A stretch of DNA of 64,000 nucleotides, taken from contig JAPPJY010000070.1 in NCBI GenBank assembly GCA_028874335.1, positions 62,001 through 126,000 on the forward strand, given 5' to 3'. The notes beneath the pieces are model-generated. The model was not told where the DNA came from and did not search any database. It worked only from the letters and a program-made list of their open reading frames with translations. The stretch is from Gemmatimonadota bacterium. Its GTDB lineage: Bacteria; Latescibacterota; UBA2968; GCA-2709665. The position numbers and the translations under genes are program-made. Numbering within the stretch: position 1 is the first letter of the stretch; the number at the start of each line of letters is the position of its first letter. This document shows, one piece after another, positions 17,399 to 39,930 of the stretch.

Positions 17399-17595
17399 TT
17401 AGCCCCAATTCGAGAAAAACAGCAACCGGGCATCGTGATAAAACCATCCGAAACGGGGCCTAAACGTCGTCCGGAAGGACATTTTTTCCGATTACGTCCA
17501 GAGACCTGGTTTATCCTGGTAATCTGCCTTCTAATCGCCTTTATTAACTAGCATTTATTCGAATTAACGTCCCCGAAAAATGACGAATCATGGTT
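17399..17595 (+). repeat. Dispersed ~190-bp repeat, copy A
   Basis: Aligns over its whole length with 51014-51208 and 62585-62780, and partly with 32349-32489 on the minus strand. Shared blocks are GATAAAACC(C/A)TCCGAAAC, GGAAGGACAT then a T-run, ACCTGGTgTATCCTGG, and a distal block around TTCGAATTAACGTCCCCGAA. It fills the gap between bioD and the convergent SDR, and the SDR stop codon lies inside its right edge. Confidence 0.85.
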
Positions 17596-18400
17596 GCCCC
17601 TTCTCCTGCTTCGACACGCCGCGCGTTACCAGGTATTCGACAATCTTCGGGTTGATCAGATGCAGCCAGGGCAGAAATCTGAGCTTGAACGGAATGATCA
17701 GTTCCCGCCTCCTTTTCTTCATGGCTTCGATGATGGCATGGCTGGCGTCGTCCAGAGAAATGGACTCCTTGCTGTGCTTGCGGCTGGACGCGCCGAGAGA
17801 GCCGCCATCCCGTCCGAAGGCCGCTTTGCGCAGATTCGTGCCCCTCAGCCAGTGGGGCAGCACCGTCAGCACGTCCACGCCGGTGTCGAGCAACTCCGTC
17901 CGCAACGACTCGAAGAACCCCTGCACGGCGTGCTTGGACGCCACGTACCCGGTATGCAGGGGGACGCCGATCTTTCCCTGGATGGAAGAGATTGCCACGA
18001 CCATCCCGTCGCGCGCCTTCAGATGGGGGAGCGCGTAATACACGCAGTGTACGATGCCCAGGTAGTTCGTTTCCATCAACTTGCGAAAAATGGCCAGGTC
18101 TTGCACCTCGTCAAACCGCGCCCACATGCTGATCCCCGCACACGCAACCAGGTAGTCCACGCCCCCGAACTCGGCAACCGCCGCGTCGATCCAGGCCTCG
18201 CAGTCTCCGGGTTTTCCGACGTCGCCCGTGGCCGTAACCGCGCGTCTGCCCCGCGCTCGACACGCTTCCGCGGTATCCCGGACACCCTCGTCCAGGGCGA
18301 ACAGGGCCAGGTCCGCGCCCTCGTCGGCGAACGCCAGCGCCAGCGTCGCGCCCAGACCCGACGAAGCGCCGGTTATCGCGACGACCTTGTCGTTGAACAT
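17588..18400 (-). CDS. Short-chain dehydrogenase/reductase (candidate acyl/alkyl-DHAP reductase)
   Basis: A classical SDR of 270 residues with cofactor motif GASSGLG (residues 11-17) and catalytic S138, Y152 and K156 (YVASK). The C-terminal basic segment KKRRREL followed by a hydrophobic stretch resembles membrane-associated SDRs of the 11-beta-HSD/DHRS7B type. It is the last gene of a four-gene minus-strand cluster with fatty acyl reductase, acyltransferase and alkyl-DHAP synthase homologues. By context it could reduce acyl- or alkyl-dihydroxyacetone phosphate, as the animal DHRS7B protein does. The SDR family is certain; that specific role is inference. AAAGG lies 7 bases before the ATG. 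Confidence 0.85.
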   Translation of the reverse strand: MFNDKVVAITGASSGLGATLALAFADEGADLALFALDEGVRDTAEACRARGRRAVTATGDVGKPGDCEAWIDAAVAEFGGVDYLVACAGISMWARFDEVQDLAIFRKLMETNYLGIVHCVYYALPHLKARDGMVVAISSIQGKIGVPLHTGYVASKHAVQGFFESLRTELLDTGVDVLTVLPHWLRGTNLRKAAFGRDGGSLGASSRKHSKESISLDDASHAIIEAMKKRRRELIIPFKLRFLPWLHLINPKIVEYLVTRGVSKQEKGQP

Positions 18401-18433
18401 ACGAGACCTTTCAGGTCAGATCGAACTTCTGCT

Positions 18434-18504
18434 CACACAAAGGCACGAAGACACAAAGGGAAAGGCGGAATCGATCAAAAGGCGGGCAACCACAAGGGTT
18501 GCCC
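18434..18504. repeat. CACAAAGG-type repeat and GGGCAACC palindrome
   Basis: Between the SDR and the alkyl-DHAP synthase-like gene. It holds a short CACAAAGGCACGAAG tract, also found near 46985 and 50335, and a hairpin GGGCAACC at 18484-18491 pairing with GGTTGCCC at 18497-18504. The hairpin ends one base before the stop codon of the minus-strand gene. It is a variant of the GGGCGACC palindromes listed further right. Confidence 0.55.
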
Positions 18505-20355
18505 CTACTCGTCCGCTCCCCCAAACACCCCATTCCGTATCCCGAAGATGTTTTTCGGATCCATGGTGTTTTTTGCCTGACGCATGACCTGGATGCTGGT
18601 CTCACTCTGGATTTGGGGCAGGAAGTCCCGCCGCACCTTGCCGACGCCGTGGTGGTGCGACAACGACCCCCCGTTATCCAGAATAACCTGCCGCAACTGG
18701 TGTTCGATCGCGTGAAACGTCCGGCCGGGTTGTTCCAGGCCCTTGCCGTAGATGCCCATGGTAAAATAGATGCAGACGCCCGTATGGTAGGTCTGCGTCA
18801 CCCTGTACGAGAGGTAGGGTTTGCCGGGTACGCCGTGCTCTTCGGCCTGGGCGACCAGTTCGCCGGATACCGCATCGCACACCAGGTGGATCCGGTCCCA
18901 GGGCACGGACGTCTCGAAGGTTTCCCCCAGAATTCCGTACTGGTTCAGGAAGTCCCGGATATAGGCGATGCCGAATGTCAGCGAGTACCCCCGCTTGCCG
19001 TTGCTCGCGCCCGCGCTCTTTGCGCCGTATTTTTTCGCCAGGCTGAAGATCGTGCGTTCCTGCTGGCCCACCTCGTCGTGCGTGCCCTCCATCACGATGG
19101 TGCATGCCGCCATCTTCATCGGATCGAAACCCAGCAGCTTTAGCAGGACGAACTTCTGAATCCGGTCCTTGACGCCTTTAAGAAACGTCGGCGCCGGTTT
19201 CAGCGCCTGGCCGAACCGGAATTCGTTGTTGTTGACCAGGCGGATACTGGCGGGCAGCATACCTGTCTGCCGGAGCGCCTTCAGGTACGCGACGCCCTTC
19301 TCGAATGCCGGAAACACAAGCGCGCCGTACCTGCGAGTCTCCGGGATCGGATGGATCTTGATCACCGCCGTGGTGATGATTCCGAAATTGCCTTCGCTGC
19401 CGAACAGCAGACCCCTGGGCTGAACGCCCGTGGAATTCCTGGGCGTCACAGCACGTGTAGCAATCTCCCCGGTGGGCGTCACGAGCGTCGCCTCGAGCAC
19501 GATGTCTTCGATATTGCCGTACCGGTTCTTCTTCATCCCGCTCGCGTTGGTGGAGATCCACCCGCCCATCGTGGAGAGTTCCACGCTGTCGGGATCGTGC
19601 CCCGACGTATACCCCCGCTCCCCCAATACCCGCTCCAGCGACTTTCCGGAAATGCCCGATTCGACGCAGGCCTGAAGATTGTCCTCGTCAATCCACAGCA
19701 CCCGGTCCATTCGACGCATATCCACGGAAACGATCGTGCGCCGCTCGTCGGGCGGACACGCCAGCGCCCCGCTCACGTTCGTCCCTCCGCCATAGGGCAC
19801 CAGGCAGACGTCGTGCGCATTCGCCAGGTCGATGATGGCCTTGACATCGGCCTCTTCCTTCGGATAGAACACCATATCGACCAAGCGCGGCAGCGAATCC
19901 CCGTACATCACCCGATACACTTCCTCAACGCTCAGCTGTCCGTGGCTGTGTACCAGCCTCGTTTTGGGATCGAACGAAACCTGTCCCTCGCCGAACTGCT
20001 CGTTCACCGCGTCGCCGAAAGTGGCGTCGAGATTCGGCTCGGGCGCTTCGATATCCTCACGTTCCGCGTACGAGTCTTCCTTTCGGATTGGTGTCCCAAG
20101 CACGTCTTCCACAAAGTCGACCAGAAACGGCATCCGGTACCCCGAAATCGGGTACCTGCTCCCGGTTACCCTCACCGTCCGTTCATCCACAAACTCGAAT
20201 CGCGTATCCGTATATCCCCACCTGTGGGGGAACCGTTCCCCTTCCGAGTGATCGAAGAAATCATCCGGTTCGTTTCCGGACCGCCTCCGGTTCGACAGGT
20301 GCGCGAACACCAGGACAACCGCTACGGCAACCGCTGCTATTCCCCAGTCAGGCAT
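18505..20355 (-). CDS. FAD-dependent alkylglycerone-phosphate synthase-like protein
   Basis: A 616-residue flavoprotein of the FAD_binding_4 (VAO) fold with an N-terminal hydrophobic anchor (residues 4-20). PYGGGTNVSGALACP is the FAD pyrophosphate loop, SGHDPDSVELSTMGG and NASGMKKNRYGNIED are typical of alkyl-DHAP synthases, and GGSLSHHHGVGKVRRDFL carries the His-rich active-site motif of that enzyme. The family swaps the acyl chain of acyl-DHAP for a fatty alcohol to form the ether bond. Neighbours that could supply acyl-DHAP and fatty alcohol are on the same strand. AGGAG lies 7 bases before the ATG. A D-lactate dehydrogenase-like role is less likely given the His motif. Confidence 0.85.
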   Translation of the reverse strand: MPDWGIAAVAVAVVLVFAHLSNRRRSGNEPDDFFDHSEGERFPHRWGYTDTRFEFVDERTVRVTGSRYPISGYRMPFLVDFVEDVLGTPIRKEDSYAEREDIEAPEPNLDATFGDAVNEQFGEGQVSFDPKTRLVHSHGQLSVEEVYRVMYGDSLPRLVDMVFYPKEEADVKAIIDLANAHDVCLVPYGGGTNVSGALACPPDERRTIVSVDMRRMDRVLWIDEDNLQACVESGISGKSLERVLGERGYTSGHDPDSVELSTMGGWISTNASGMKKNRYGNIEDIVLEATLVTPTGEIATRAVTPRNSTGVQPRGLLFGSEGNFGIITTAVIKIHPIPETRRYGALVFPAFEKGVAYLKALRQTGMLPASIRLVNNNEFRFGQALKPAPTFLKGVKDRIQKFVLLKLLGFDPMKMAACTIVMEGTHDEVGQQERTIFSLAKKYGAKSAGASNGKRGYSLTFGIAYIRDFLNQYGILGETFETSVPWDRIHLVCDAVSGELVAQAEEHGVPGKPYLSYRVTQTYHTGVCIYFTMGIYGKGLEQPGRTFHAIEHQLRQVILDNGGSLSHHHGVGKVRRDFLPQIQSETSIQVMRQAKNTMDPKNIFGIRNGVFGGADE

Positions 20356-20447
20356 AACACACTCCTGATTACCACAAACGGCCGTGCCATACGAATGCGG
20401 CCGCGCAATTCAATGAGTGATGGTTCAGGACGTCCCGGGCCGACGTA

Positions 20448-22388
20448 TCACCGGGAGGGCTCCGGATTCAGCAGATTGGAAATATGCACCGCCTGAAGCA
20501 GATTGGCGGCTTCCAGCTGAATTCGCAGCGAGCGGCGGCGGGGCAGCAACGTGGTTTCGCCCGGCATAGGGGGCAGGATCACCGCCTCGATCACACCCGG
20601 ATTGATATTCAGATTGCGCGCCGGGCACTTCGGCCATAGCGCATGGCTGCCGCGAAATACGATGGGAATCATCACCACGTCCGCGGGGAGTTTCGCGAAC
20701 AGCGCGTGCTGGAGCGGGAACAGCTGTACGTCGAACGAAGCCGTTGTGCCCATCGGATAGATCACCCCGGGGCGATGTTCCATCTCCTGCAGGATGCGTG
20801 GAATCGTATGGGACGAGATATCCACGCTGTCCCTGGTGATGAAGCCGTCGACGGTTTCGAACATCCTGTCGAATTTGTCAGGGGACATTCCGAAGATGCT
20901 GATCTCGCGGGATCCGATCTTCACCGACGTCGACTTCGCCAGTCCCGTGCGGGCCAGCTGGACCACCGGACGGGAACGGTCCCACCCCATCGCATCCAGA
21001 AACACCGGGTCATTGAAAACCGAAAACACCACGAAGTGCTCCAGCATGCTCTGATGGGAGGGCAGGAACAGGATCCTCTGGCCGCCGCGGGAAAGTTCCA
21101 TTTCCCGGACCAGTGTCCGGAACATCGGATCAATCTTTACTTCCAGCCGGATGCCGAAAGCATTCATCGTATCGCGGGACCAATCCAGCCAGACTTCCCA
21201 CGCGCGTTCGTGCCTTTGTGACGGCGTGAGGTCCTCTTCAGCAATCCGTTTCCGGCGCCGCCCAACACGCCAGCAGCGCCTCGCCCACCGCACCATCCTC
21301 ATTTTGCGCTGGAGAGACGTCAATTCCTCCGTGACGCCCACATGAGCATAGTCCAGAAATCGACCCGTATGAGAACCTGCCAGCAGCGGAGGGAGCGCCG
21401 TTTCAGTCAATCCGTCCCCGTCTCGAACCGCGGAATTCACCGCATCCACAATCCGGACGCTCAGATCGATCATATCCCGTGTCAGATAACTGTACGGCTG
21501 ACCGTACCAGTAGTTCTCGGGCCGCAGACGGGCGGGGTCCTCCCGGTGCGCCGCGAGAAACTCCACGAGCATACTCCTGCACAGGTCCACGTCCGTCTTC
21601 AGGGACGCCAGGCGCTCCGCGTCCGAATCATCCTTCTGATACAGCCGCACGTCGGCGTCCGCGACCACCTTCCAGACCGAACTACCGAACCATCCCAGGT
21701 TATTGTACGTGTTGTAGCGCGTGGCGAGAAGCTCGCCGGCGGCAATCAGGTGCAGCGTCCGCTGCGCCACGTCTTCCAGGAGTTCACGGAGGGATCCGTT
21801 CCATGTATCGCCATTCACCTCGCAGGCGTATTCGACCTGCCATCGCGGGTCCTCGTCCGTGGCAACGCTGGGCAGGGCTTCCGCAACGGCCCTGGCGTGG
21901 GACAGCGGCACCCTCGAGATCCTGGCCTGTGCCAACGCTGTCTCGCCCAGGTCGGGCGAGAAATCGTCCCCTTTTGCGAGCGCCTCGACGTATAGCGACT
22001 GGTACAGTTTCAGGAAATCCTGTCCCGTTCCGGCGCCGCTACCGACGAATTCGTCCCGCAGCCGCAGGTAAATCCGGTTTCCCTCGTGGTAGGCCGGCGT
22101 CAGTTCGACGAAGTGGTCGTGCGCCTCCTTCAGCCTCCGGTCCCTCAGCGCCGGAACACCGCGATAGATCGCGTCCACGATTCGCGCGCGTTTACGCAGC
22201 CCTTCCAGGCCGACCTCATCCGCGCCGCCGGCCGGCCACTTCAGCTCCCCGGCCGTCCAGCCCTCGAAATAACCCTCGGGCTGAACCGCTTCGATCAACT
22301 CCGACGCGGCCTGATCGTACGCCGCACGCAGCCTGTCCGGATCCTGCAACAGCATCCGGTGCACCGGGACCGTCTTGTTTCGATCCAT
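20448..22388 (-). CDS. PlsC/GNPAT-like glycerophosphate acyltransferase with long N-terminal region
   Basis: A 646-residue protein. Residues about 438-600 are an acyltransferase domain: HQSMLE at 445-450 takes the place of HX4D with Glu for Asp, YPMGTTAS near 543-550 is the third block, and IPIVFRG near 574-580 the fourth. The first 400 residues are predicted helical, with no recognised domain. The length resembles animal DHAP acyltransferase (GNPAT), but the domain sits at the C-terminal end rather than in the middle. It is flanked by fatty acyl reductase and alkyl-DHAP synthase homologues, so acylation of DHAP is a reasonable guess. Lipid acyltransferase family membership is solid; substrate is inference. 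Confidence 0.75.
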   Translation of the reverse strand: MDRNKTVPVHRMLLQDPDRLRAAYDQAASELIEAVQPEGYFEGWTAGELKWPAGGADEVGLEGLRKRARIVDAIYRGVPALRDRRLKEAHDHFVELTPAYHEGNRIYLRLRDEFVGSGAGTGQDFLKLYQSLYVEALAKGDDFSPDLGETALAQARISRVPLSHARAVAEALPSVATDEDPRWQVEYACEVNGDTWNGSLRELLEDVAQRTLHLIAAGELLATRYNTYNNLGWFGSSVWKVVADADVRLYQKDDSDAERLASLKTDVDLCRSMLVEFLAAHREDPARLRPENYWYGQPYSYLTRDMIDLSVRIVDAVNSAVRDGDGLTETALPPLLAGSHTGRFLDYAHVGVTEELTSLQRKMRMVRWARRCWRVGRRRKRIAEEDLTPSQRHERAWEVWLDWSRDTMNAFGIRLEVKIDPMFRTLVREMELSRGGQRILFLPSHQSMLEHFVVFSVFNDPVFLDAMGWDRSRPVVQLARTGLAKSTSVKIGSREISIFGMSPDKFDRMFETVDGFITRDSVDISSHTIPRILQEMEHRPGVIYPMGTTASFDVQLFPLQHALFAKLPADVVMIPIVFRGSHALWPKCPARNLNINPGVIEAVILPPMPGETTLLPRRRSLRIQLEAANLLQAVHISNLLNPEPSR

Positions 22389-22510
22389 TTGTTGTCACTT
22401 CTGAAAAAAGCCGACAGACCGTCAATACATGACTCGGATTCGTCCTGTTCGCATCCCCATCGCGTGAACATACGAGCGATGACGATTCTGAACCTCGAAC
22501 CCCTCCAAAT

Positions 22511-22670
22511 CAGCCCGTTGAAAAAGTCCATCCGGGCTACGGCCGGCCCCTGCGGTCGAAATACTGCGTTGCGCTCCCTTGCCGAATCGCAGGATGGGAC
22601 TCGGTCGCGCGCCTTGTCTTCGACCACATTGGCTCGGCCTCGCCTGCAGAGCGACTTTATCAACGGACTG
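22511..22670. repeat. MITE-like element with imperfect ~19-bp terminal inverted repeats
   Basis: CAGCCCGTTGAAAAAGTCC at 22511-22529 matches the reverse complement of the 22651-22670 end (CAGTCCGTTGATAAAGTCGC) at 16 of 19 positions. The 160-bp unit lies between the fatty acyl reductase and acyltransferase genes and has no frame of its own. It occupies most of the 291-base gap between these genes; nothing else was recognised there. Confidence 0.6.
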
Positions 22671-22679
22671 CTATGGCGG

Positions 22680-24314
22680 TCAATCGGCCTCGGCTGTCAT
22701 CGCGGAAACTGCCCCGTCCCCCTCTTTCAACACATGGTGTTTCAATCCCGGAATATGGATCTCCTGGATATATTCCCGCCAGTCGATGCGCGTCACGTCG
22801 AAGTTGAACTCCCTCTGATCTTCTGAATTCAGCGACTCGAAAAGCCGGCGGGTATTCTCCGTTTCGAACTCGCAATCGAGATGGGTGTACCCGCAATAGG
22901 TATCGACCAGGGACTCGAGCCGCTCAAGCACGGCTTCCATTCCGGAAACCCGGCGCCTGTAGCGCGAAACCCATCGGGCGGGCAGATAGTCCACGGCCGC
23001 CTTCAACAGGCTCAGGGGAAGCTTGTACTTCAGTGCGACCAGACAACGGAACCGCCGCTGGCTGATGAACTGCCAGGGCCGGACATCGATGGGCCGCCCG
23101 GCTCGGTCCTGCATGGGCGAAGACTTGAAATACCCGTATACCAGTTCGACCATTTCGCTGGCCCGTACCGGATTCTGTGAGCCCGAGGCCACGTGGTAGA
23201 CCTTCATCTCCCCGGACCCGTGTACCTGCGGAAGAACCGCAATGACGGCGTTGTTCAGGACGTCCACGGGTATGATATCCAGCACAATCCCGGGATCGAT
23301 CGGGAAATTTGAAAGCCGCCCCTTGCCGTAGTGGACGATCAGCGGATCGGCGACTTTCAGATCCTCCACCCAGCCGGGTTCCGGGTCTTCAAGGCTGCTC
23401 TCCACGATCGCCGGCCGGACGATGGCCGTCGGAAGGTCTCCCCGCAGTTTCAAGACCAACTGTTCACCCATCGCCTTGGTGAGGGTGTAGCTGTCGTTCC
23501 AGCCGTGACGCCTCGCGCGTCGCATCCCTTCGTCCACCAGTTGCTTCCGGATCCATCGCTGGCGAAGGGCTTCTACCTGGTGGGCCTTCCGGTAGTCGGT
23601 CACGCGTTTCCCGCGGTCCTGCCGCCGGAGCTGCTTCAGGAACGCCGCCTCGAGGCCGGGTTCCCTGGATGCCTCCTCGACTTCCCGTGTAAAGGCCCGG
23701 ATAGCGTCAATCTCGTCCTGCAGGTCGAACCCGGCGACGTTTCCGTTGATGAGGTCCGAAACGCTCTTGTCTTGGGGAAACGGCGCTTCGGGTATCTTGC
23801 CGGTGCGCTTTCCGCTCACGTACGCGGTTGATACATGAACGAGCCCAGCTTTCCGGCAGGCTTTCGCGAAGGCGACGACGCGGGCTGCGCCCATCGTATT
23901 CTGTTCGAGGGCGCTGTCGATGGGCTCGTCGAATACAACCGTTCCGGCGAAATTGACGACAAAATCGACGTCTTCGACCAGTCGCTCGCGTTGTTCGGTG
24001 GAAATCCCCAGTCCGTCTTCGGTCAGATCGCCGGCCACTGCGACGAGCTTGTCCGCCATCACGGCGGTGAACGCCCCACCCCACCTCTCACGCAGCCTTT
24101 CGAACGCGCGGGACTGAAGGATTTCGGTCTCCAGGCGTTCCGTTTCGGAGACGATCTGGCCGTTGGTACGCGACCGGGGACGGATCAGGAGATAGATCCG
24201 CGCCACCTCGGGCGCGGAAAACAGGATCTTCTCCACGAATCCCTTCGCCAGGAACCCCGTCGCGCCGGTTACAAAAAGCGTCTTGCCGCTCAGAAATTCC
24301 GCAATGGACTGCAT
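22680..24314 (-). CDS. FAR-type fatty acyl-CoA/ACP reductase
   Basis: A 544-residue protein with the architecture of eukaryote-like fatty acyl-CoA reductases. An NAD-binding domain opens with TLFVTGATGFLAKGFVEKIL (residues 12-31), the catalytic YTLTK is at 276-280, and a C-terminal sterile-like domain (about residues 420-540) ends in FNFDVTRIDWREYIQEI. The enzyme reduces an acyl thioester to a fatty alcohol. It is the first gene of the minus-strand cluster that ends with the SDR at 17588. The alcohol is the second substrate needed by the alkyl-DHAP synthase-like protein, which supports a shared pathway. Wax-ester synthesis is the main alternative, but no wax synthase is nearby. Confidence 0.85.
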   Translation of the reverse strand: MQSIAEFLSGKTLFVTGATGFLAKGFVEKILFSAPEVARIYLLIRPRSRTNGQIVSETERLETEILQSRAFERLRERWGGAFTAVMADKLVAVAGDLTEDGLGISTEQRERLVEDVDFVVNFAGTVVFDEPIDSALEQNTMGAARVVAFAKACRKAGLVHVSTAYVSGKRTGKIPEAPFPQDKSVSDLINGNVAGFDLQDEIDAIRAFTREVEEASREPGLEAAFLKQLRRQDRGKRVTDYRKAHQVEALRQRWIRKQLVDEGMRRARRHGWNDSYTLTKAMGEQLVLKLRGDLPTAIVRPAIVESSLEDPEPGWVEDLKVADPLIVHYGKGRLSNFPIDPGIVLDIIPVDVLNNAVIAVLPQVHGSGEMKVYHVASGSQNPVRASEMVELVYGYFKSSPMQDRAGRPIDVRPWQFISQRRFRCLVALKYKLPLSLLKAAVDYLPARWVSRYRRRVSGMEAVLERLESLVDTYCGYTHLDCEFETENTRRLFESLNSEDQREFNFDVTRIDWREYIQEIHIPGLKHHVLKEGDGAVSAMTAEAD

Positions 24315-24618
24315 AGCTTCCCGAATTGGACAAAAAACCCGTTTCCCCTACCTCATAAGTCAGGGCAGCAATCCGGAAGAATCTCCTTCGTTGTTCTTCC
24401 GTCATCGTGCCGCGAGGTCGAGTGAACGGGACGTCATAAATTCGCTGAATCGCAATAACCAATGGCAACTGTAAACCTCACCACCGGTGTTCGTTTACCA
24501 GACAAGGAAGGAAAGCCAAGATCCGCTTGGAGTCAAGGGAAATCTGGTTACGGACACTTTTGATTTGTCCTTTGGATTCTTTCCTTGTATATTTGGTATA
24601 AATGAGGAAGTGGTGTCT

Positions 24619-24942
24619 ATGAAATGGCTAAGAGAAAATGCAGCAGCAATTATGGCTATAATGGCTATTCTGACTCCTTTTCTACTTTATGCTTCGAGCA
24701 TAGATGGACGACTTGATAGCATAGAAAAGGATGTTTTAGTCATAAAGAAGGATCTTTCAGCGTTGAACGGAGATCTTTCAGTGTTAAAGGGAGATCTCTC
24801 AGCGTTGAAAGGAGATTTTTCGGCATTGAGAGGAGATCTTTCAGTGCTGAAAGGAGATTTTTCGGCGTTGAAAAAGGATCTTTCAGCCATTAAACGTCAC
24901 ATTGGAGTTTCGTCGGCTTCAATAGCAACCAGCGATAATTAG
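24619..24942 (+). CDS. Small membrane-anchored heptad-repeat protein
   Basis: A 107-residue protein: a short N-terminal hydrophobic helix (residues 7-24), then seven nearly identical 7-residue units of the form DLSALKG, and a short polar tail. The repeats have hydrophobic residues at fixed heptad positions and should form a coiled coil. The ATG at 24619 is chosen over the longer frame because GAGGAAG lies 8 bases upstream and the membrane helix starts there. Base composition is more AT-rich than the lipid cluster to the left, marking the beginning of the accessory island. No function can be assigned. Confidence 0.7.
   Translation: MKWLRENAAAIMAIMAILTPFLLYASSIDGRLDSIEKDVLVIKKDLSALNGDLSVLKGDLSALKGDFSALRGDLSVLKGDFSALKKDLSAIKRHIGVSSASIATSDN
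24748..24894 (+). repeat. Seven 21-bp tandem units inside the heptad-repeat gene
   Basis: Units follow the pattern GGAGATCTTTCAGYGTTGAAA with third-position and small amino-acid changes. The number of units is in frame (one heptad each), so copy-number change would lengthen or shorten the coiled coil without breaking the frame. Confidence 0.8.
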
Positions 24943-25002
24943 CCTCAATCAAACCCACTCGATAAAAATACTATCCAGTGGGTTTTAGACAGTCTGAACA
25001 AA

Positions 25003-25040
25003 CAAACCGCTCAGTCACTGAATTGTGACTGAGCGGTTTG
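25003..25040 (+). terminator. Strong hairpin, candidate terminator
   Basis: A perfect 16-bp stem, CAAACCGCTCAGTCAC at 25003-25018 pairing with 25025-25040, and a 6-base TGAATT loop. It lies 60 bases after the heptad-repeat gene and is followed by CTTTACTG, only a weak T-tract. It separates this gene from the convergent minus-strand ORFs. Confidence 0.65.
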
Positions 25041-25061
25041 CTTTACTGATCGGGAAGTTCA

Positions 25062-25262
25062 TTACGCAATACAAGATGTCGGGATTATTAAGTCGTTTTT
25101 CGAGATCCTCTTGGGACTTTCCATCAGCGTCTTGCCTGGATCCTCCAATACCGCTTCATCTTCCGCCGCTGCGTCGTCTTCTGCCTGTGATTCGTAATGA
25201 TCCAGAAGGTGTCGAACACGCTCCTCGTCCCAACCCTTTGGAAACCTGGTCACACTCTTCAT
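25062..25262 (-). CDS. Small antitoxin-like protein, copy 1
   Basis: A 66-residue acidic protein beginning MKSVTRFPKGWDEERVRHLL. It is a clear paralogue of 40777-40977: both share RFPxGWxExRVRxLLDH, a following acidic EDEAVLxD segment, and a similar tail. Its ATG overlaps the stop of the 46-residue ORF upstream by 4 bases (ATGA), so the two are translationally coupled. Size, acidity, coupling to a small basic partner and location in an accessory island suggest an antitoxin-type protein, but no known toxin family was recognised and this is inference. Confidence 0.55.
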   Translation of the reverse strand: MKSVTRFPKGWDEERVRHLLDHYESQAEDDAAAEDEAVLEDPGKTLMESPKRISKNDLIIPTSCIA

Positions 25263-25399
25263 CTTTCTATCCTTCTCATCCGCCTGCGATAAGCGAGTGC
25301 CGGTTTACCCTTCAGTTCGTAGGAGGAAATGACAAAAACACAGTTCGGTTCGTGGTCCGGCGCATAGATCGGTCGGTGATATCGACTCCGCGAGTCCAT
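25259..25399 (-). CDS. Small basic protein, possible partner of the antitoxin-like ORF
   Basis: A 46-residue frame from ATG 25399 to the TGA at 25259, ending CVFVISSYELKGKPALAYRR plus a basic tail. The downstream antitoxin-like ORF starts within its stop codon. A related sequence, containing ADYVFVLTAYVL, precedes the second antitoxin-like copy at 40.99-41.1 kb, which supports coding. It may be a 5'-truncated remnant of a longer gene, since the related segment is preceded by DPYLHEIDGPDP. Function unknown. Confidence 0.45.
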   Translation of the reverse strand: MDSRSRYHRPIYAPDHEPNCVFVISSYELKGKPALAYRRRMRRIER

Positions 25400-25478
25400 C
25401 AAATTGCAACTCGCGATTCTTCTCGACTTGATCCGTTTTTGACCGGCACAGAGGATAAAGTACCGGCTGGCTGATCAC

Positions 25479-26579
25479 TCAAAAATACTTTCTTCGAATC
25501 AACTCGTTTATTGTTCGCTGCAGATCTGCCAGGAAGTTTTCATCAATATTGTCCGTCCACCAATGTGCAATATCATTCCTGTATTCCGTCAGCTCCTGTA
25601 AGGTTTTTTTGCCAGCCACAACGACATTGTCTTTTCTAATATTTCCCCCGTATCCTAGGTATTTCGCTCCGGCCTCTACCAACGACTGCCACAACCGCAA
25701 GTATTGGAGGCGCTTGTAAGGGTCGTCTTTATGCTCATCGCAATACATTGAGTTGATTAGAAGTGACAGGTGCGGAGTCGCAACGTCCCGCTCCATAGCA
25801 ACAATCGCTTTCCTAATCTCTGCTGCAGTGCTCCTGTACTTTCCGGCATCCATCTCCATCGCTGATTGCAAACGTGCCGACGCACTGGATTGCATCATTA
25901 CAGCGAAAGCTCCGTCGTCGGTCACGAGACAGCTCTGATCTACGTGTTTTTTTATTGGATCAGATGTCTTCTGTGCTACCCGCACGCCCGCAAGTATCAG
26001 ATTCACAATCTGCTGTCTGCTGGAAAGTTTGGGCCATGACCCGTCAACTGTAGCCCATGCGGTTATGAACTTCCTATTCTCCCTACCGCCAACTAATGCG
26101 GGAATTTTCTCATCGTCCCGGACAATTACTTCGTCCGAGATGCTACACTCGCCCCTATTCATCTCAACCGGCGTCAATGCGTAATTCTGCTCAATCACCA
26201 AATACACTGGTACGCTGCTTTGTTGGGATCTGATCTTCCTGTCGGTCTCACGGACCACGTGTTGCAAACAAGGGCTGATGCGGTAATGCTTATGGCCCAC
26301 CGTTTTCGCGAAGTAACCGATAAGATTTGACGTAACACACGATTGAACCGATGGAGAGTCGTAGATGCAGTGATGAGAATCGTCACCGTTCGGTCGTAAG
26401 TCGATCCGCGGGAATTCAAAAATCTGAGTTCGGCAATGCCCATTGATTGTGCAAGGAAACTCCTCGCCCCCTACCGCCGTGTACATCGCTCGCGCTCCGG
26501 CAAGCGTAACACTCGCATCCGGTGTCACTGTTTGGAGCGACTTCTCACGATCCGCTACCGTACGTTTCTTTCTTGCCAT
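25479..26579 (-). CDS. Unknown protein with C-terminal HEPN-like motif
   Basis: A 366-residue protein. The C-terminus is helical and contains EYRNDIAHWW, an R-X4-H motif (Arg334-His339) of the HEPN ribonuclease superfamily, about 33 residues from the end. The N-terminal part has conserved-looking Cys/His residues but no recognised domain. The ATG at 26579 is favoured because GGAG lies 9 bases upstream; the frame could begin at 26642, touching the stop of the previous gene. It is the third gene of a minus-strand operon with an HNH-like protein and another HEPN-like protein. An RNase-type defence role is plausible but unproven. Confidence 0.6.
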   Translation of the reverse strand: MARKKRTVADREKSLQTVTPDASVTLAGARAMYTAVGGEEFPCTINGHCRTQIFEFPRIDLRPNGDDSHHCIYDSPSVQSCVTSNLIGYFAKTVGHKHYRISPCLQHVVRETDRKIRSQQSSVPVYLVIEQNYALTPVEMNRGECSISDEVIVRDDEKIPALVGGRENRKFITAWATVDGSWPKLSSRQQIVNLILAGVRVAQKTSDPIKKHVDQSCLVTDDGAFAVMMQSSASARLQSAMEMDAGKYRSTAAEIRKAIVAMERDVATPHLSLLINSMYCDEHKDDPYKRLQYLRLWQSLVEAGAKYLGYGGNIRKDNVVVAGKKTLQELTEYRNDIAHWWTDNIDENFLADLQRTINELIRRKYF

Positions 26580-26642
26580 AATGAATTCACTCCATACCCA
26601 AGTGGTCATACAGATTTGGGTTTCCCCCATTCCGTTCAACAT

Positions 26643-27431
26643 TCATCGATTGCAATTCTCAGAGACAAGACGTTCATACTTCCTTCCTAGTTTCTTATAC
26701 GCCTGCACGAAATCCTGACCTGCTCGAGTCTGCAATTCTGCATCCATAAGCCTTCCTGTATATGATTCTAAAAACGATTGCCGTATAAGAATTAGACTGC
26801 CGTCTTTCTTGAAGCCTAATCCCTTAACTTCGGGCTTATTGTGTCTTGAAACATGTAGGAACCACTCACAGCCTCCATAGGCCAAAAGATAAACATTCAA
26901 TCCGTCCAATCTGAGCCGAAACGGCGGAGATACAAGACTGTGAACAATAGCCCCATCATGGACGAGAAGCTGGCAAATAATCGAATAGTCATGCTCTTCG
27001 CCTGCATCTTCATTTAGTATCATTTGAGCAATTCGCCCCTCGTGAGGCCCTAGACTAACAGCAGCGAATGCTCTGTCTTTAGATACCGAACAGCGCCAAA
27101 GAACGCTTAAATGGAACAACTTAAACGAAGTATAATCAAATCCGTCTAATCTCCAATATTCCTTCTCAAATTGCTCCGGCAACCGACCCCGGTCATACCA
27201 ATCAGTTTTAAATCGTCCCTCAATCTTACTCAAATGTAGCTCACACTTAACACATAACAGAGGTTCGCGAATTCCCTTTTGAACGATGATTCGTGATATT
27301 TCCTGAGTGTTAAATTTGATCGCCCGGTGCTTTGGATCATAACAATACCTATAAAGAAACTCTGGCAATATATGGGAGTTTTGAAGTCTACTGACACACC
27401 CACAAAGTTTGCAAATTTCATCTTGACTCAT
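26643..27431 (-). CDS. HNH-like zinc-binding protein
   Basis: A 262-residue protein starting MSQDEICKLCGCVSRLQNSH. CxxC, then SHILPEFLYR with the His, and a second CxxC (LLCVKCE, about residue 65) form a Zn-binding betabetaalpha-like arrangement common to HNH-type nucleases, although the classical catalytic His-Asn-His cannot be fully traced. The rest is alpha/beta with no assignment. The ATG at 27431 lies 8 bases after the stop of the HEPN-like gene; the longer frame overlaps that gene. It is the middle gene of the three-gene operon, which fits a nuclease partner of HEPN proteins, an inference only. Confidence 0.6.
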   Translation of the reverse strand: MSQDEICKLCGCVSRLQNSHILPEFLYRYCYDPKHRAIKFNTQEISRIIVQKGIREPLLCVKCELHLSKIEGRFKTDWYDRGRLPEQFEKEYWRLDGFDYTSFKLFHLSVLWRCSVSKDRAFAAVSLGPHEGRIAQMILNEDAGEEHDYSIICQLLVHDGAIVHSLVSPPFRLRLDGLNVYLLAYGGCEWFLHVSRHNKPEVKGLGFKKDGSLILIRQSFLESYTGRLMDAELQTRAGQDFVQAYKKLGRKYERLVSENCNR

Positions 27432-27438
27432 TTTTGTC

Positions 27439-28509
27439 TCAAAAAAACGCGACCTTTTGTACGGTAGCATCGTCGCCAGATTCAGACAGATACCGCTCCA
27501 GTAGATTGTACGCAGCTTGCGCATGTTCATACTCACCTTTTATGTCACGAATTACCGGGTCGGATAGGTGGCGGGACGGATGCGCTAGGTTCCGCAGTTT
27601 CCGGATTATCTCCACGAGCGATTGAGAGGACACCCTTCGATCGCCGACTAGAAAATCCGGAAGCCATCCCGCCTCACTTGCAATGCGTGCCAGTTCCGCG
27701 AATCGCCAGCGCATTGGATTTTTCCTATCGGGCCGCTCGGATTTCGGCAATTGATCCCGGACAGACAGAGCTCTGTCAAGACGCTTCAGACATGCAAACA
27801 GAAGCGCAGCCTCCATTGCGGATCCGATCATTACCGTTGCAGCGTAATACGCTCCCCCTTTTGCACACTTCTCGGCCTCTACTTCGAGGCGTTTCTGGGC
27901 AGCATAGATCTGCTCCATCTCTGAGATTTCCCCAAACGCGAGCCGACGCCCCTGTTCACGTTCCGCGTCGAACGCTTCTCGGTCTCTGTGAAACAGATCT
28001 GCTATTTCGTGGAGTCCGTACTCCCGTAGCGTCTCTTCAAACTTCCTGTCTAAGACCCCTGAATACTCCCGCTGCAATTCCTCCCAATCCTCCGGTCCCT
28101 CACCGATTCGCCAGTCTTCGTCATCGTCCAATCCCTCCCGTTTACGTATGGCGTCCATACCCGCATTAATCTCGCAGAGGTCAGATTCGTACAAATCGCC
28201 GAACCAACGTTCATCGTGTATACGTTCAATAGGGTACAGCGTAAGCAAGAAGCGATAATTCGGGTCCAATATTCCGGCTGCTTCGGCCCATCCTACGTTC
28301 TCGAGCCACACTTTCGCTTCGGCTTCGACGTCGGATACGCGTCGCTGTTTCGTTTCGGAATACTTGGTCTTGAAAATCTGAAGTTTCTGAGCAGTACCTC
28401 GAAACTGTTCGAAGGCAATGGTACGTCTCACGATCATCTTCAAGTCTTGCAGGTCTTGCTCGCTGAGTGATGTACCGTCTTTCCGGTCTACCTTGTTGGA
28501 TTCATCCAT
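27439..28509 (-). CDS. HEPN-like protein
   Basis: A 356-residue, mostly helical, strongly charged protein. The last 150 residues look like a HEPN/DUF4145-type bundle: GGAYYAATVMIGSAMEAALL, then IIRKLRNLAHPSRH with Arg303/Arg306 and His310 in an R-X(3-6)-H spacing, then a final helix EYEHAQAAYNLLERYL. The N-terminal 200 residues are not recognised. It is the first gene of the operon with the HNH-like and second HEPN-like genes. Upstream, 140 bases away, ends the truncated restriction-modification gene. Possible RNase or nucleotide-binding accessory subunit; function not established. Confidence 0.6.
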   Translation of the reverse strand: MDESNKVDRKDGTSLSEQDLQDLKMIVRRTIAFEQFRGTAQKLQIFKTKYSETKQRRVSDVEAEAKVWLENVGWAEAAGILDPNYRFLLTLYPIERIHDERWFGDLYESDLCEINAGMDAIRKREGLDDDEDWRIGEGPEDWEELQREYSGVLDRKFEETLREYGLHEIADLFHRDREAFDAEREQGRRLAFGEISEMEQIYAAQKRLEVEAEKCAKGGAYYAATVMIGSAMEAALLFACLKRLDRALSVRDQLPKSERPDRKNPMRWRFAELARIASEAGWLPDFLVGDRRVSSQSLVEIIRKLRNLAHPSRHLSDPVIRDIKGEYEHAQAAYNLLERYLSESGDDATVQKVAFF

Positions 28510-28649
28510 ATCATCGCGCTTTTCTTGTTGTTTCCGTGGTCAATCTGGCCACAGCCAAATTGAGGTCGTTGAAAACTGCCAGACCGCTACCGCATTGCCA
28601 GAGTCAATTCCAGCAAAAAGCCGTTCGACTCAAAATTCACTTTGCCGCG

Positions 28650-30824
28650 TCAGTCGCCCTTTGCTCCGTAAAACAGATCACCCGTCCTTCTCGGGGCCTT
28701 AGGCGGTTTGCGCATTTCATCGGGTACCGGCGGTAATTCGTCGGCGAGGAAGCAGTCGCCTTCGATAATCTCTTCCATCAAGCGCGCCTGTTCAGGATAT
28801 ACCTTCAACGTCGCCTCCAGAACCCAGAGCAGATGGAGAAGCTCCGTCGTAAATTGGCTCGTCCAGCGTTCAGGACGAATGTTGTCCAACGGCGATGACT
28901 TCTTACCTGCGCCCTTCTTCATTCGATACTTGAGCCAGGACACGACGACATTGAGACCCGAAACCTCGAACTCGTACACTTCGGGCGCAACCGGCATAAA
29001 AACACCCTCTCCGACGCAGAGAATCCCGCTTACTTTATTATAATTAAACGAGTCTGGGTAGTTCTCCGGATCCTCGGGAACGCCCTTGACACACTTGGCT
29101 GCGCCACGGGGAACGTGACCACGTCGCTGGTCCTCACGAATAAATCGTTCACCGTAGGTGTGAAGCCAAAGCAACCGAGAACCGGACACACGTACTCTTT
29201 CGAACAATGCCGCGTCTTTCGTGAGCGGTATGCGGAGTTCGCGGGTGCTCAGTTCACTTCGAAAACGGTCTGTGTAGGCTGAATGCGCCACCGTACCGTA
29301 GATATAGGCGAGGAAATCTTCCGGCGTTACTACTGTCTTGTAGGCGTTGCTTAGGACGTCGAGGATGTGAGGGGTGATGTTAGCCTGTGATGCGCCAACA
29401 GTGCGATAGAGAGGAATAGTGTCCTTTGCGCCACGACCTGAAAAGTGATGCAGGTCGGGAATTAGCGCACAAGCAGTTGCCGCTGGACCGCGACCCAATT
29501 GATCTTTCAATAGAGTTGTCAAATACACCTGTCTTTCGCCGTGAGCCCGCCAAAGGTCAGGGCGCGGGCGTGACATTAGCCGACCATCCGCAATTATGCA
29601 ATGCCGATCAAATGTTCGATATGCGTATGGGTGCATTTCTGGTGTTGGTGCGTCTGTCGTCAGTTGGGAGATTGGTGTCGAGTCGTCATTTCGCCGCGTT
29701 AATTCAACTCGGTAGGTACCACCAACCTCGCGATCACCGGTCTCACGGAATGCCTTGGATCTATCCTCAGCATTAAGTAAACCGCGCCACCGGTGCTCTA
29801 ACGTCTCAGTATCAGGCGCAATTGGCCATGTTCGTTTTAGCTGAACGCCAGAATGCTGCCAAGGCAGTAGATCGGTAATCAGCGGCCACGTGAAGTAATC
29901 CCCCTTTCCCGCTGGGCGAAACGGAGCCTGCCAGTCTTCTGGACAATCCTGCCAAGATATTGAGGCAAATTGATCAATGGTGTCAAGCGCCTTAAGCTTT
30001 TCCGGCTGGGAACCCTCTACAAGGGCATAGCGGGTTTTTGCTGGCATGTCATTGGACATATGCTGGTAACGGACGGCTACAGCAATGGAAACCGGTGTAC
30101 GAATCGCAAAGACGTTTTCGCTCTGGATGGCACCGTGTCCTTCACCACCGAGGTCAAGAATCCAGATCTCGTCGCATTGGCGCCGCATGTGCTCACGCAT
30201 TCCGCAGAAAGCGTCTCCGTCGAGGTAGCTGGACGCACTGATGAAGCTAACGACACCGGGTCCATTGGCTGTGTCATGCTCGAAGACCTTCCACAACGCC
30301 CAGCGCCAAAAATAGACGTAAAGGTTGTAGAGATTCTTGATCCGGACGCCCTGCCCGGCCGAGCGTGCGGGAGCGATGAAATCCTTAAGAATCGCAAGTT
30401 CCTGTCTCTTCGCGAGCCTGGATCTGGGAGTCTTTAACTCTCTTTCTCTTCCCCTGTCATCCTTATATTTGTTGCCCGGCAGGGGGTCGGTGAATCGAAC
30501 CCATCCACCGTAACGGGAAAGGTTGTCCTCACTTTCGGTATCGACTGCGTCGTGCCGGTCATAGGGAGGATTGCCCAGGCATACAATGACGGGGACAGCG
30601 TTCTTGATCTTTATAGCTTTTTCGTGTTGTTCGGCGATTGGCTTGAGGATGAACGGCATTTTGGGCGGCTCAGCGTGCGGACTTTCTAGAGTGTCAGTCA
30701 GATATATGTGCGTGCCGGTTTCAGATAAAGTTGCACCGTTATCGCGCAGTGCGCGGTTAACGCGTAATTCGCTCACTGCGTAGGGGCCAACCATCAATTC
30801 AAACCCATACAGGTTTTCTGCCAA
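28650..30824 (-). pseudogene. 5'-truncated type ISP-like restriction-modification enzyme
   Basis: The frame encodes the C-terminal 724 residues of a large single-chain adenine-methylase enzyme of the type ISP/LlaGI-like class. It begins near ENLYGFELMVGPYAVSEL and contains the methylase motif CLGNPPYDR (about residue 84) and a long specificity-type region. The helicase, nuclease and methylase motif I parts expected upstream are absent. An in-frame TAA stands 21 bases before the only possible start (TTG 30824), and the sequence beyond is an unrelated AT-rich operon. It is therefore best seen as a deletion remnant. Without motif I it cannot bind AdoMet normally. Confidence 0.75.
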
Positions 30825-30848
30825 AGTCGTGGCCTGTCCCGGGAGTTA

Positions 30849-30893
30849 AAGAAATCAAAAGAAAAACCACCTGCCGCCCCCCGAAGACAGGTG
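30849..30893 (-). terminator. Intrinsic terminator for the exported-protein operon
   Basis: On the minus strand, CACCTG (30893-30888) pairs with CAGGTG (30873-30868) around a G-rich loop. It is followed by GTTTTTCTTTT (about 30868-30857). It lies about 40 bases after the stop at 30935. Confidence 0.6.
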
Positions 30894-30912
30894 ATTTCCA
30901 TTATTCAATTCA

Positions 30913-30938
30913 ATAACCCAGGGGATCCCCTGGGTTAT
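30913..30938. repeat. 26-bp perfect palindrome over a stop codon
   Basis: Both halves read ATAACCCAGGGGA from the outside. The TAA stop of the minus-strand gene (30937-30935) lies inside the palindrome. It may act with the neighbouring hairpin as a terminator or mRNA 3'-end stabiliser. Confidence 0.6.
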
Positions 30939-31663
30939 CTCTGGTTGATCTGGTCGATTGCGTATCGTGCAAAGTCTTTATTCGCATATACCCCATTAAA
31001 GTTCAGGGTATCGGTCGTCGCTACACGTGTCAGGATTGGTAGCGTTGTTTTGTCACCGAATACAGACAGTGCAAGACATTGAGCCCCCATGGACGAATAT
31101 AAATTCAAACTCGATACTAGCTCACGTCGTATTGTACTTATTTGTTCTGCGGTAAACAGATCAGGATTGCGACCATACATCTTGCGTAACGTATGAGCGG
31201 CTTTTCCACGTCCTTTAATAGTGGGTAGGTGCAAATAAGTTATCACACTGTCGATAACCCCAGAGTCCATCTTCGATAAACCGATGGCCGAATTTCCTTT
31301 GCTCCTTTTCACACTATTTAATAGAACCTGGCGAGATCTACTATCACCTATTTGTCCCAGGAAATTGACAAGATTGTTTTCCAATTTGTGTGATTCATTG
31401 GTGACTTGATACTTTATGAGCAACTCGTTCATAATTGGTATGGCAGAATAAATAAAGGTTGTTCCCTTCTCTTTATGTAATATCGCAAGACGGCCCAAAA
31501 CACGACTCTTTGATTGTTCATCTCCATACTTGATAATGTCAAGTTCGAGTTGTGTTATAGGTGCCTTTGAAATATGCGCAGTTTCGATAAATCGTCTTTC
31601 TGCCTTTAAGGGTTGGTTAAAGAAAATTGTAAATAGAGCCAAGAACCAAATTTGTAATTTCAT
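30935..31663 (-). CDS. Exported HEAT-like repeat protein
   Basis: A 242-residue protein with a signal peptide (MKLQIWFLALFTIFF, cleavage near residue 21). The mature part is all-helical with repeated units such as LGQIGDSRSRQVLLNSV and LSVFGDKTTLPILTRV, resembling HEAT/PBS-lyase repeats. AAGGAGG lies 6 bases before the ATG at 31663. It is the last gene of an AT-rich operon of exported proteins. A fragment of a paralogue's C-terminus (ending YAIDLINQRR, compare YAIDQINQR here) lies at 32263-32350, showing that this gene was once duplicated together with its M15 neighbour. A scaffold role is possible; function unknown. Confidence 0.65.
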   Translation of the reverse strand: MKLQIWFLALFTIFFNQPLKAERRFIETAHISKAPITQLELDIIKYGDEQSKSRVLGRLAILHKEKGTTFIYSAIPIMNELLIKYQVTNESHKLENNLVNFLGQIGDSRSRQVLLNSVKRSKGNSAIGLSKMDSGVIDSVITYLHLPTIKGRGKAAHTLRKMYGRNPDLFTAEQISTIRRELVSSLNLYSSMGAQCLALSVFGDKTTLPILTRVATTDTLNFNGVYANKDFARYAIDQINQR

Positions 31664-31679
31664 TTCATACCTCCTTGCG

Positions 31680-32240
31680 TTATGAGTAATTGTCGGGATA
31701 ATCACAATAGTTCATCAACTCGATATGTAGGTATCTGGAATCACTTTCATCAATATCCAGAAAGTAGGCATCACCATATTCAGCTTTTAGGGTGATTTCT
31801 GCCTCTTGGATATGATCTCGGATTTTTTGTTTTTGTGCATCGTTCATTTCACTCCACTTAACGCCATTGAATTTTCGAGCATCAGCAGCATTCCCATATT
31901 GATGAAGGCTGTCGTCTTCCCCTCCTTCATCATTATTGTGGAATGGGTTTCTATAGGTGCTGTTGAGTACTATTTGACCTCCAACGGCTTCACGTATATT
32001 GTCCATCGACCACCAAAATGCTCCATTAGCCAAATACCAGGTAAAATCTGTATTGTCTCTATTTCCAATTTCCCAAGAGGAAAAGTATTTAGAACTATAA
32101 CCATTAGTGAAATGATTACGGTCAGGTACTTTTAAACCCTCATCCCGATACATATCTCTAAGGGTATCTATTTGTTCACTAGCGATGATACTACCACACA
32201 TTACCAATAAAACAAAGACACTCTTATAAAGAGTACTCAT
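31680..32240 (-). CDS. Exported peptidase M15A-like protein
   Basis: A 186-residue protein with a signal peptide (about 20 residues). The core has the M15A zinc-peptidase pattern: LNSTYRNPFHNN, then DSLHQYGNAADARKF (His and Asp ligands of SxHxxGxAxD) and LHIEL with the third His ligand near the C-terminus. The family cleaves peptidoglycan peptides, so the protein could act on cell wall in the periplasm or outside. GGAGGG precedes the ATG. It is followed 16 bases later by the HEAT-like gene. A second, broken copy lies upstream at 32413-32775. Confidence 0.75.
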   Translation of the reverse strand: MSTLYKSVFVLLVMCGSIIASEQIDTLRDMYRDEGLKVPDRNHFTNGYSSKYFSSWEIGNRDNTDFTWYLANGAFWWSMDNIREAVGGQIVLNSTYRNPFHNNDEGGEDDSLHQYGNAADARKFNGVKWSEMNDAQKQKIRDHIQEAEITLKAEYGDAYFLDIDESDSRYLHIELMNYCDYPDNYS

Positions 32241-32262
32241 AAAATTCCCTCCCCTGGACTAC

Positions 32263-32350
32263 TCACCTACGTTGATTAATTAGATCAATCGCGTACTGTG
32301 CTCTTCGTCGATTAGAATACCGATTGAATATTTTCACGGTATCCGTTTTT
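32263..32350 (-). pseudogene. C-terminal remnant of a second HEAT-like gene
   Basis: In frame on the minus strand the last 29 codons before the TGA at 32265 read AKTDTVKIFNRYSNRRRAQY and end AIDLINQRR. These match the end of the intact HEAT-like protein (ATTDTLNFNGVYANK... YAIDQINQR). The rest of that gene is missing and the dispersed repeat copy D abuts it. Confidence 0.6.
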
Positions 32351-32489
32351 GCAATTTACTGCTGATTACCAGGATACACCAGGACACTGTACGTGAACTG
32401 AAAAAATGTCCTTCATGACGACCATTTCGGCCTGTTTCGAAGGGTTTCGTCGAGTTGCCGCGTTGCGGCTTTTGCGGAATTGAGGCTAA
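32349..32489 (-). repeat. Dispersed ~190-bp repeat, copy D (3'-truncated, inverted)
   Basis: On the minus strand it begins GTTAGCCTCAATTCCGCAAA and matches copy B closely (TTAGCCTTAATTCCGCAAAA, then GCAACGCGGC, CGAAACAGG, AAGGACATTTTTTCAG, TGGTGTATCCTGGTAAT). The last ~45 bases of the full repeat are missing. It sits exactly between two gene fragments, supplying the final codons of the truncated M15 gene. Confidence 0.8.
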
Positions 32490-32775
32490 CTACTAAGGGT
32501 ACACCCGAAGCGCCCCGAAGCTCATCCATGTACCACCAAAAAGCGTGATTAGCAAGAAAGTTGGTATGGCAGTCATTATCATTTCCTATTTCTGAATTGG
32601 AAAAATAACGACTTGGGTGATTCGTAACGAACATTTCCCGAGTGGGAAGTTTTAAATTGTTATTTCTGTATTCTCCAATAAGTTCATCAATTTCATCCCC
32701 GAAAGAAATTCCATATCCACTACACAGAATAGCCAGTACAAGCACAAATCGGTTTACCAATTTAATTGGCTTCAC
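32413..32775 (-). pseudogene. Truncated M15A paralogue ending in a dispersed repeat
   Basis: The first ~95 residues mirror the intact M15A neighbour: a signal peptide, then EIDELIGEYRNNNLKLPTRE, SRYFSNSEIGN and NHAFWWYMDELRGASG (compare NGAFWWSMDNIREAVGG). The frame then enters repeat copy D and stops after about 25 unrelated residues, so the zinc-binding half is gone. The GTG start at 32775 lies 13 bases downstream of the previous gene. Probably inactive; it might still be secreted as an N-terminal domain. Confidence 0.7.
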
Positions 32776-32788
32776 AAGAAGAATCCTC

Positions 32789-34009: not shown

Positions 34010-34021
34010 AACTAACCTCCT

Positions 34022-34687: not shown

Positions 34688-34731
34688 CGCAAATCCTCCA
34701 GTCTTTCAAGGTTAAAATTATCTTGATCTAT

Positions 34732-35494: not shown

Positions 35495-35610
35495 TTTGGC
35501 TTTGTTTTAGATTGAGCCTACCAAAATACATGTAATTCGCGATTTCCAAACGGCTCCATTTAGGCGATCATGGGCGGCATGATAGGGGCGATCGCTGACA
35601 TTTTACGAAC

Positions 35611-37701: not shown

Positions 37702-37769
37702 CCGGACCGACCCCCTTCCTGACTGAAGGGGATACGGTGATAGGTCACGGTATCGGCAAGGCGACTCCT

Positions 37770-37953: not shown

Positions 37954-38001
37954 CCGAGGGGCCGCGGGAGAGGTCTAATCCAGGTTTCCACATCAAGTGT
38001 C

Positions 38002-39927: not shown

Positions 39928-39930
39928 CGT

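Follow-up and report, generated by a model that had tools for sequence, protein, structure and literature searches.

Bacterial alkylglycerone-phosphate synthase (AGPS, alkyl-DHAP synthase) has been surveyed mostly as a marker of alkenyl ethers (PMC11868695), and it occurs together with enzymes of the fatty acyl reductase (FAR) type (PMC11948995). In Myxococcus, one operon comprises MXAN_1676 (AGPS), MXAN_1675 (a fusion of a FAR1-like reductase with a GNPAT-like acyltransferase) and MXAN_1674 (an epimerase/dehydratase); loss of AGPS has a minor effect on ether lipids there, a modest contribution (PMC9131029). Sponge symbionts commonly carry ElbD-type clusters (PMC9426513). AGPS and ElbD homologues have been found in metagenome-assembled genomes (MAGs) of Latescibacterota, AGPS was listed for 67 of 92 Latescibacterota MAGs from the Black Sea, and the anaerobic plasmalogen route (pls operon) and the Ger reductase have been named as bacterial ether-lipid systems (PMC11868695). 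We analyzed a four-gene cluster in a 64,000-nt stretch (hereafter the window) of contig JAPPJY010000070.1, which belongs to a 5.43-Mb draft genome (GCA_028874335.1) from a class of uncultured Latescibacterota. In the order of transcription, the cluster encodes a FAR, a large acyltransferase designated P0002, an AGPS and a short-chain dehydrogenase/reductase (SDR); all four open reading frames (ORFs) were intact and on the minus strand, in the order that the original prediction for this DNA had given. Judging from gene content, the cluster probably specifies a glycerolipid pathway that starts from dihydroxyacetone phosphate (DHAP), follows the same chemistry as ether-lipid synthesis in animal peroxisomes, and replaces the GpsA-PlsX-PlsY entry. 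The class, as delimited here by kinship, consists of 47 genomes (G000–G046) in the families f1 (6 genomes), f2 (15), f3 (1) and f4 (25).

Comparison with solved structures using phmmer aligned the window AGPS with guinea-pig AGPS (4bby) over 564 residues (45–608; E = 3e-151, 508 bits); D-lactate and glycolate dehydrogenases (D-LDH/GlcD), the groups with which the enzyme might otherwise have been placed, scored no more than 95 bits. The GGSLSHHHGVGKVRRDFL motif named in the original prediction was present, together with the Pfam domains FAD_binding_4 and FAD-oxidase_C. The equivalents of guinea-pig H300, R419, R515, Y578 and HHH 615–617, which we take to be the catalytic (active-site) residues of AGPS, were all kept in the window protein and invariant across the class alignment. 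A quick maximum-likelihood tree placed it inside a 32-row clade (SH-aLRT 100) with sequences from Trueperaceae, Phycisphaeraceae, Hydrogenedentota and Acidobacteriota. Because it combines full-length similarity to guinea-pig AGPS with the conserved catalytic residues and this position in the tree, the window flavoenzyme is, by sequence, a genuine AGPS, and the exchange activity is predicted. The AGPS sequences of f3 and G026 were divergent (44–48% identity) and fell outside the 32-row clade. Many members carry an N-terminal hydrophobic segment (MPDWGIAAVAVAVVLVFAHLSNRR in the window), which is probably a membrane anchor. In the same quick tree, which held two eukaryotes, no Myxococcota and long branches, animal and Dictyostelium AGPS lay outside all sampled bacterial sequences, and a recent transfer of the window AGPS from animals was rejected on that basis. 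The term "animal-like" used for the route in the original prediction thus holds for the chemistry; it does not extend to the AGPS, which nests in a large bacterial clade, or to the acyltransferase, which is not recognizably a GNPAT.

The window FAR matched both FAR domains above their cut-offs, NAD_binding_4 (PF07993, E = 2.5e-63) and Sterile (PF03015, E = 3.4e-16), and a fatty acyl-coenzyme A (CoA) reductase of known structure (7eoz; phmmer E = 6.8e-94). It contains both the TGxxGxx and the YxxxK motifs, and its assignment as an alcohol-forming fatty acyl reductase is well supported by these matches. The SDR matched adh_short (PF00106, E = 1.6e-43), in agreement with the earlier assignment, and NF004825/PRK06181 of NCBIfam with 285 bits (cut-off 215), and reached only 87 bits against the closest solved SDRs. 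Its gene stands beside AGPS across families and occurs where AGPS of the window type occurs. The expectation that genomes of genus g14, which lack AGPS, would retain an SDR orthologue failed; the SDR goes with AGPS. Bacterial wax-ester synthesis also uses FAR-type reductases (PMC11948995), and the product of the cluster might accordingly be a wax ester, a fatty alcohol or some other storage compound or natural product; the AGPS-like flavoenzyme and the SDR would then catalyze redox steps of an unrelated kind. We consider this very improbable, given the strong AGPS identity with its catalytic residues, the lack of a wax-ester synthase among the four genes, and the recurrence of AGPS, acyltransferase and SDR across phyla.

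In direct sequence searches, P0002 matched nothing in NCBIfam or the PDB and nothing meaningful in Pfam, PF01553 included, with the threshold relaxed to E ≤ 5; a DUF89-like match was not significant (E = 0.22) and was discarded. Some f4 orthologues exceeded the PF01553 cut-off of 23 bits (G033, 25.3 bits; G046, 24.2 bits with neighbors), and a profile-profile alignment with PlsC-type proteins lined up the same blocks at a low probability (30.8%). The AlphaFold2 model (pLDDT 87.7) retrieved Thermotoga maritima PlsC in Foldseek (5kym; E = 1.3e-4, TM(target) 0.65), followed by squash glycerol 3-phosphate (G3P) acyltransferase (1k30; probability 1.0) and PatA. Because orthologues pass PF01553, the profiles align, if weakly, and the predicted fold agrees, the C-terminal domain of P0002 is, as modelled, an acyltransferase of the PlsC/GPAT fold. 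An alignment of 32 sequences (A1) showed block I as HX4D (HQSLLD) in most relatives and as HX4E (HQSMLE) in the window genus, with downstream blocks PGVxYxxGTT, in which P, G, Y, T and T are family-invariant, and P-x-x-x-R-G. The N-terminal part, about 400 residues and helical, had no match. The original description of this protein as PlsC/GNPAT-like therefore stands for the PlsC/GPAT part, by way of orthologues, weak profile alignment and predicted fold, and not for a direct sequence match of the window protein to PF01553 or GNPAT. GNPAT homology was sought in the NCBIfam and PDB sequence searches, which gave no match and did not include a direct GNPAT sequence comparison; P0002 may nevertheless act in a GNPAT-like manner, with DHAP as its putative acyl acceptor. 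No description of this family was found in the open-access literature, and P0002 is a defined candidate for a new acyltransferase family.

Within the class, P0002 was present in 46 of the 47 genomes, FAR in 45 and AGPS, at least in part, in 42, and the FAR tree followed the class. FAR and P0002 were neighbors in all 22 genomes of f1–f3, and AGPS came next after P0002 in 20 of these, the contig ending at that point in the other two (G001 and G013). The same gene order recurred in other genera and families at 43–59% identity of the acyltransferase protein, which argues that the arrangement is not due to chance; the genes thus occur together in relatives, as the original prediction required. In f3, an acyl-CoA ligase gene lies upstream of FAR. 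G007 departs from the other f2 genomes in that its AGPS and P0002 are about 1.8 kb apart (L069, 8828–10659), and at another f2 locus (L075) a YegS/DagK-type lipid kinase gene lies downstream of the SDR. The set is dispersed in f4, where AGPS and SDR stay paired, P0002 lies apart from them, and FAR in most cases forms the leading domain in an ElbD-like protein of roughly 1400 residues that also has AMP-ligase and PlsC domains. This dispersal is real, since it was seen in the single-contig genomes G037 and G046. Among the f4 loci encoding ElbD-like FAR-ligase-PlsC proteins (L134–L146), those of G037 and G022 have an Lgt-like (prolipoprotein diacylglyceryl transferase) gene downstream and a lipid kinase gene of the YegS/DagK type on their other side, in divergent orientation. 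Proteins of 441–477 residues that match PF13685 strongly (E = 1e-20 to 1e-31) and are possibly glycerol 1-phosphate (G1P) dehydrogenase/AraM-like were found in part of f4 only (L265–L268 and G022, G025, G028, G032, G033, G035 and G038); as a marker for archaeal-type G1P dehydrogenase the family was rejected as too broad, since E. coli matches as well. Phylum members outside the class had no P0002, and their FAR and AGPS matches were weak and partial.

The named genomes with the nearest AGPS sequences were mostly MAGs labelled Candidatus Latescibacterota, with some labelled Gemmatimonadota or Poribacteria. Across 80 named AGPS loci, for which counts are lower bounds as some contigs end early, FAR-P0002-AGPS-SDR was found at 14, and a PlsC-type gene or domain stood immediately upstream of AGPS at 20, fused to FAR in 8 of them. 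P0002 and PlsC occurred together at none of the 80 loci, and this mutual exclusion beside AGPS indicates that P0002 replaces PlsC in an otherwise widespread cassette. With comparable cassettes in several phyla and the published operon MXAN_1674-1676 of Myxococcus (PMC9131029), the original remark that a compact bacterial cluster of all four steps is not well described does not hold. One of the 14 complete loci, L181, comes from Truepera sp. bin119, labelled Deinococcota; either the set was transferred horizontally or the contig was misbinned. Long N-terminal extensions of FAR ORFs in Acidobacteria (L186 and L197) were considered as a fused domain and set aside, as they look like low-complexity sequence spuriously translated from GC-rich DNA. 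AGPS was also seen in the culturable cyanobacteria Planktothrix PCC 9631 (L206), Nostoc LEGE 07299 (L212) and Dulcicalothrix PCC 7102 (L219), with a PlsC-type gene and an SDR in the first two and near ligase-ACP-reductase megaenzymes in Planktothrix and Dulcicalothrix.

What is new here is the class-wide absence of GpsA, PlsX and PlsY homologues, of which no description was found in the open-access literature. Above the cut-offs, PlsY (PF02660), PlsX (PF02504) and GpsA (PF07479) were each found in none of the 47 class genomes, with one sub-threshold PlsX match (G005), and all three were found in phylum outgroups and most control genomes. The ether cluster is divergent beside yceD-rpmF-fabH-fabD-fabG-acpP-fabF in f1 and f2 genomes from several genera, and in the class loci fabH follows rpmF without an intervening plsX; the outgroups G049 and G047 have rpmF-plsX-fabH (L231 and L232), so the gap is positional evidence of true loss. 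The genome of the window has a single PF01553 protein, presumably PlsC, which leaves P0002 as the sole visible candidate for the first acylation. P0002 could be a housekeeping enzyme that acylates G3P for all phospholipids, a new GPAT of the PlsB kind supplied with G3P by glycerol kinase or a GlpD-type enzyme, with AGPS, SDR and FAR as a linked accessory ether branch. Such a role would suit its occurrence in nearly all class genomes, even those that lack AGPS and SDR, its location away from AGPS in f4, and the plant G3P acyltransferase among its Foldseek matches. We nonetheless regard it as unlikely, since the usual G3P supply is gone in a class without GpsA, and since P0002 in f1–f3, flanked by FAR and AGPS, occupies the place that other AGPS cassettes give to their acyltransferase.

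In the proposed DHAP-first pathway, P0002 would convert DHAP to 1-acyl-DHAP and FAR would produce a fatty alcohol by reducing an activated fatty acid; AGPS would then replace the acyl chain with this alcohol to give 1-alkyl-DHAP. The SDR would reduce the keto group to yield 1-alkyl-G3P, and possibly also acyl-DHAP to lysophosphatidic acid, and the single genomic PlsC would afterwards add the sn-2 acyl chain. The pathway would thereby substitute, in the class, for the lost GpsA-PlsX-PlsY phospholipid entry, with ether lipids as the expected products. The earlier proposal of ether lipids derived from alkyl-DHAP has good support where FAR and AGPS are concerned and reasonable support for the acyltransferase and the SDR; it may be too narrow, because in a class without GpsA, PlsX and PlsY the cluster may feed general phospholipid synthesis and not ether lipids alone. 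The four-gene set may thus be a main membrane-making route rather than a side line. A more far-reaching reading, which we offer tentatively and at somewhat less than even chances, is that the class has dismantled GpsA, PlsX and PlsY and builds its glycerophospholipids from DHAP through P0002, AGPS and SDR, with alkyl/acyl-DHAP instead of G3P as the first committed intermediate. The pathway might also lead on to vinyl ethers (plasmalogens), the end products in Cystobacterineae and animals, whose route has the same upstream steps (PMC9131029). That ending seems highly doubtful to us; the CarF/PEDS1 desaturase (PF10520) was matched in 0 of 64 genomes, which is weak evidence, the control having been silent too.

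Several observations weigh against the DHAP-first pathway as the replacement for the lost entry. The four genomes of genus g14 (G030, G031, G036 and G039) have P0002 and lack a close AGPS, an SDR orthologue, GpsA, PlsX and PlsY, so that FAR-P0002-AGPS-SDR is not the sole route and another way to acyl-G3P must exist there. The search for G3P entry covered GpsA, PlsX and PlsY and did not extend to glycerol kinase and GlpD as further sources of G3P. Block III of P0002 reads GTT, without the E and R of EGTRS, and its HX4D motif appears in the window genus only as HX4E. Finally, alkyl-/acyl-DHAP is assigned as the putative substrate of the SDR from gene linkage only.

The coordinates of the cluster features are listed in Table 1. 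The intergenic gaps measure 291 nt (FAR-P0002), 92 nt (P0002-AGPS) and 104 nt (AGPS-SDR), and the count of terminator-like sites in the cluster region was not above that in shuffled sequences. The hairpin between AGPS and SDR, taken at 18485–18504 for this comparison, has a second copy at 50116–50135 with 2 mismatches (0 expected by chance) and is a small dispersed palindrome. The cluster adjoins a low-GC region (24400–44000; GC 0.41–0.54, vs about 0.61–0.65 to the left) that contains a Type IIG/ISP restriction-modification gene (28650–30824), an MTase_II match (38623–39927) and the defence candidate PDC-S39 (41354–43189), and is a probable defence island.

Table 1. Features of the four-gene cluster (positions in the window)
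Feature	Position	Strand	Basis
FAR (fatty acyl reductase, FAR/FarA type), 544 aa; proposed role: fatty alcohol for ether bond	22680..24314	-	PF07993 + PF03015; phmmer 7eoz
FAR YxxxK active-site motif, YTLTK, residues 276-280	23475..23489	-	translation; alignment
P0002, large acyltransferase, 646 aa; proposed DHAP (or G3P) 1-acyltransferase	20448..22388	-	AlphaFold2 model, Foldseek, PF01553 in orthologues
P0002 acyltransferase block I, HQSMLE	21039..21056	-	alignment A1
P0002 block III-like stretch, PGVIYPMGTT	20742..20771	-	alignment A1; profile alignment to PlsC-type FPEGTRS block
AGPS (alkyl-DHAP / alkylglycerone-phosphate synthase), FAD enzyme, 616 aa	18505..20355	-	phmmer 4bby, Pfam, tree, residues
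AGPS signature GGSLSHHHGVGK, residues 562-573	18637..18672	-	translation; same stretch identical in animal AGPS
SDR reductase, 270 aa; proposed alkyl-/acyl-DHAP reductase	17588..18400	-	adh_short; NF004825/PRK06181; position beside AGPS
Hairpin GGCAACCACAAGGGTTGCCC + T-run, in the AGPS-SDR gap just past the AGPS stop; may be an attenuator or a repeat element	18484..18504	-	

If the proposed pathway is correct, a lineage that lost GpsA, PlsX and PlsY has conserved a complete four-step route as one unit, and DHAP-first lipid synthesis is not confined to animal peroxisomes and can replace the textbook bacterial entry pathway. It would then bear on the lipid divide, on how the ether-lipid enzymes of animals arose and on the sources of environmental alkyl-glycerol lipids.

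Among the known systems, the pls operon and Ger also lead to bacterial ether lipids; they are generally understood to convert ester lipids to ethers without chain exchange on acyl-DHAP, and they are not encoded in the window cluster. The multifunctional protein ElbD and the elb cluster were reportedly described by Lorenzen et al. in 2014 (cited in PMC9131029 and PMC9426513); the f4 FAR domain sits in an ElbD-like protein (FAR, AMP-ligase and PlsC) and the FARs are related by tree, whereas the window FAR stands alone at 544 residues, without a fused ligase, acyl carrier protein (ACP) or PlsC. The FAR-PlsC fusion-AGPS-SDR cassettes of Phycisphaeraceae, Trueperaceae and Hydrogenedentota and the cyanobacterial ligase-reductase-PlsC-AGPS-SDR cassettes likewise have an acyltransferase directly upstream of AGPS and, in most, an SDR downstream; they differ in filling the slot with an ordinary PF01553 PlsC-type enzyme, often fused to FAR. 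The MXAN_1674-1676 operon of Myxococcus xanthus also unites AGPS, a FAR1-like reductase, an acyltransferase and a reductase-type gene. Compared by description rather than by sequence, it differs in that FAR and the GNPAT-like acyltransferase are fused, whereas the window has a separate FAR and the 646-residue P0002, and in that its other gene is an epimerase/dehydratase rather than a classical SDR. With the animal pathway (FAR1-GNPAT-AGPS-PexRAP/DHRS7B) the cluster shares the four chemical steps from DHAP and an activated fatty acid; it is set apart by a P0002 without a sequence match among solved structures, by an AGPS that groups with bacterial sequences in the tree and probably carries a membrane anchor, and by its organization as an operon.

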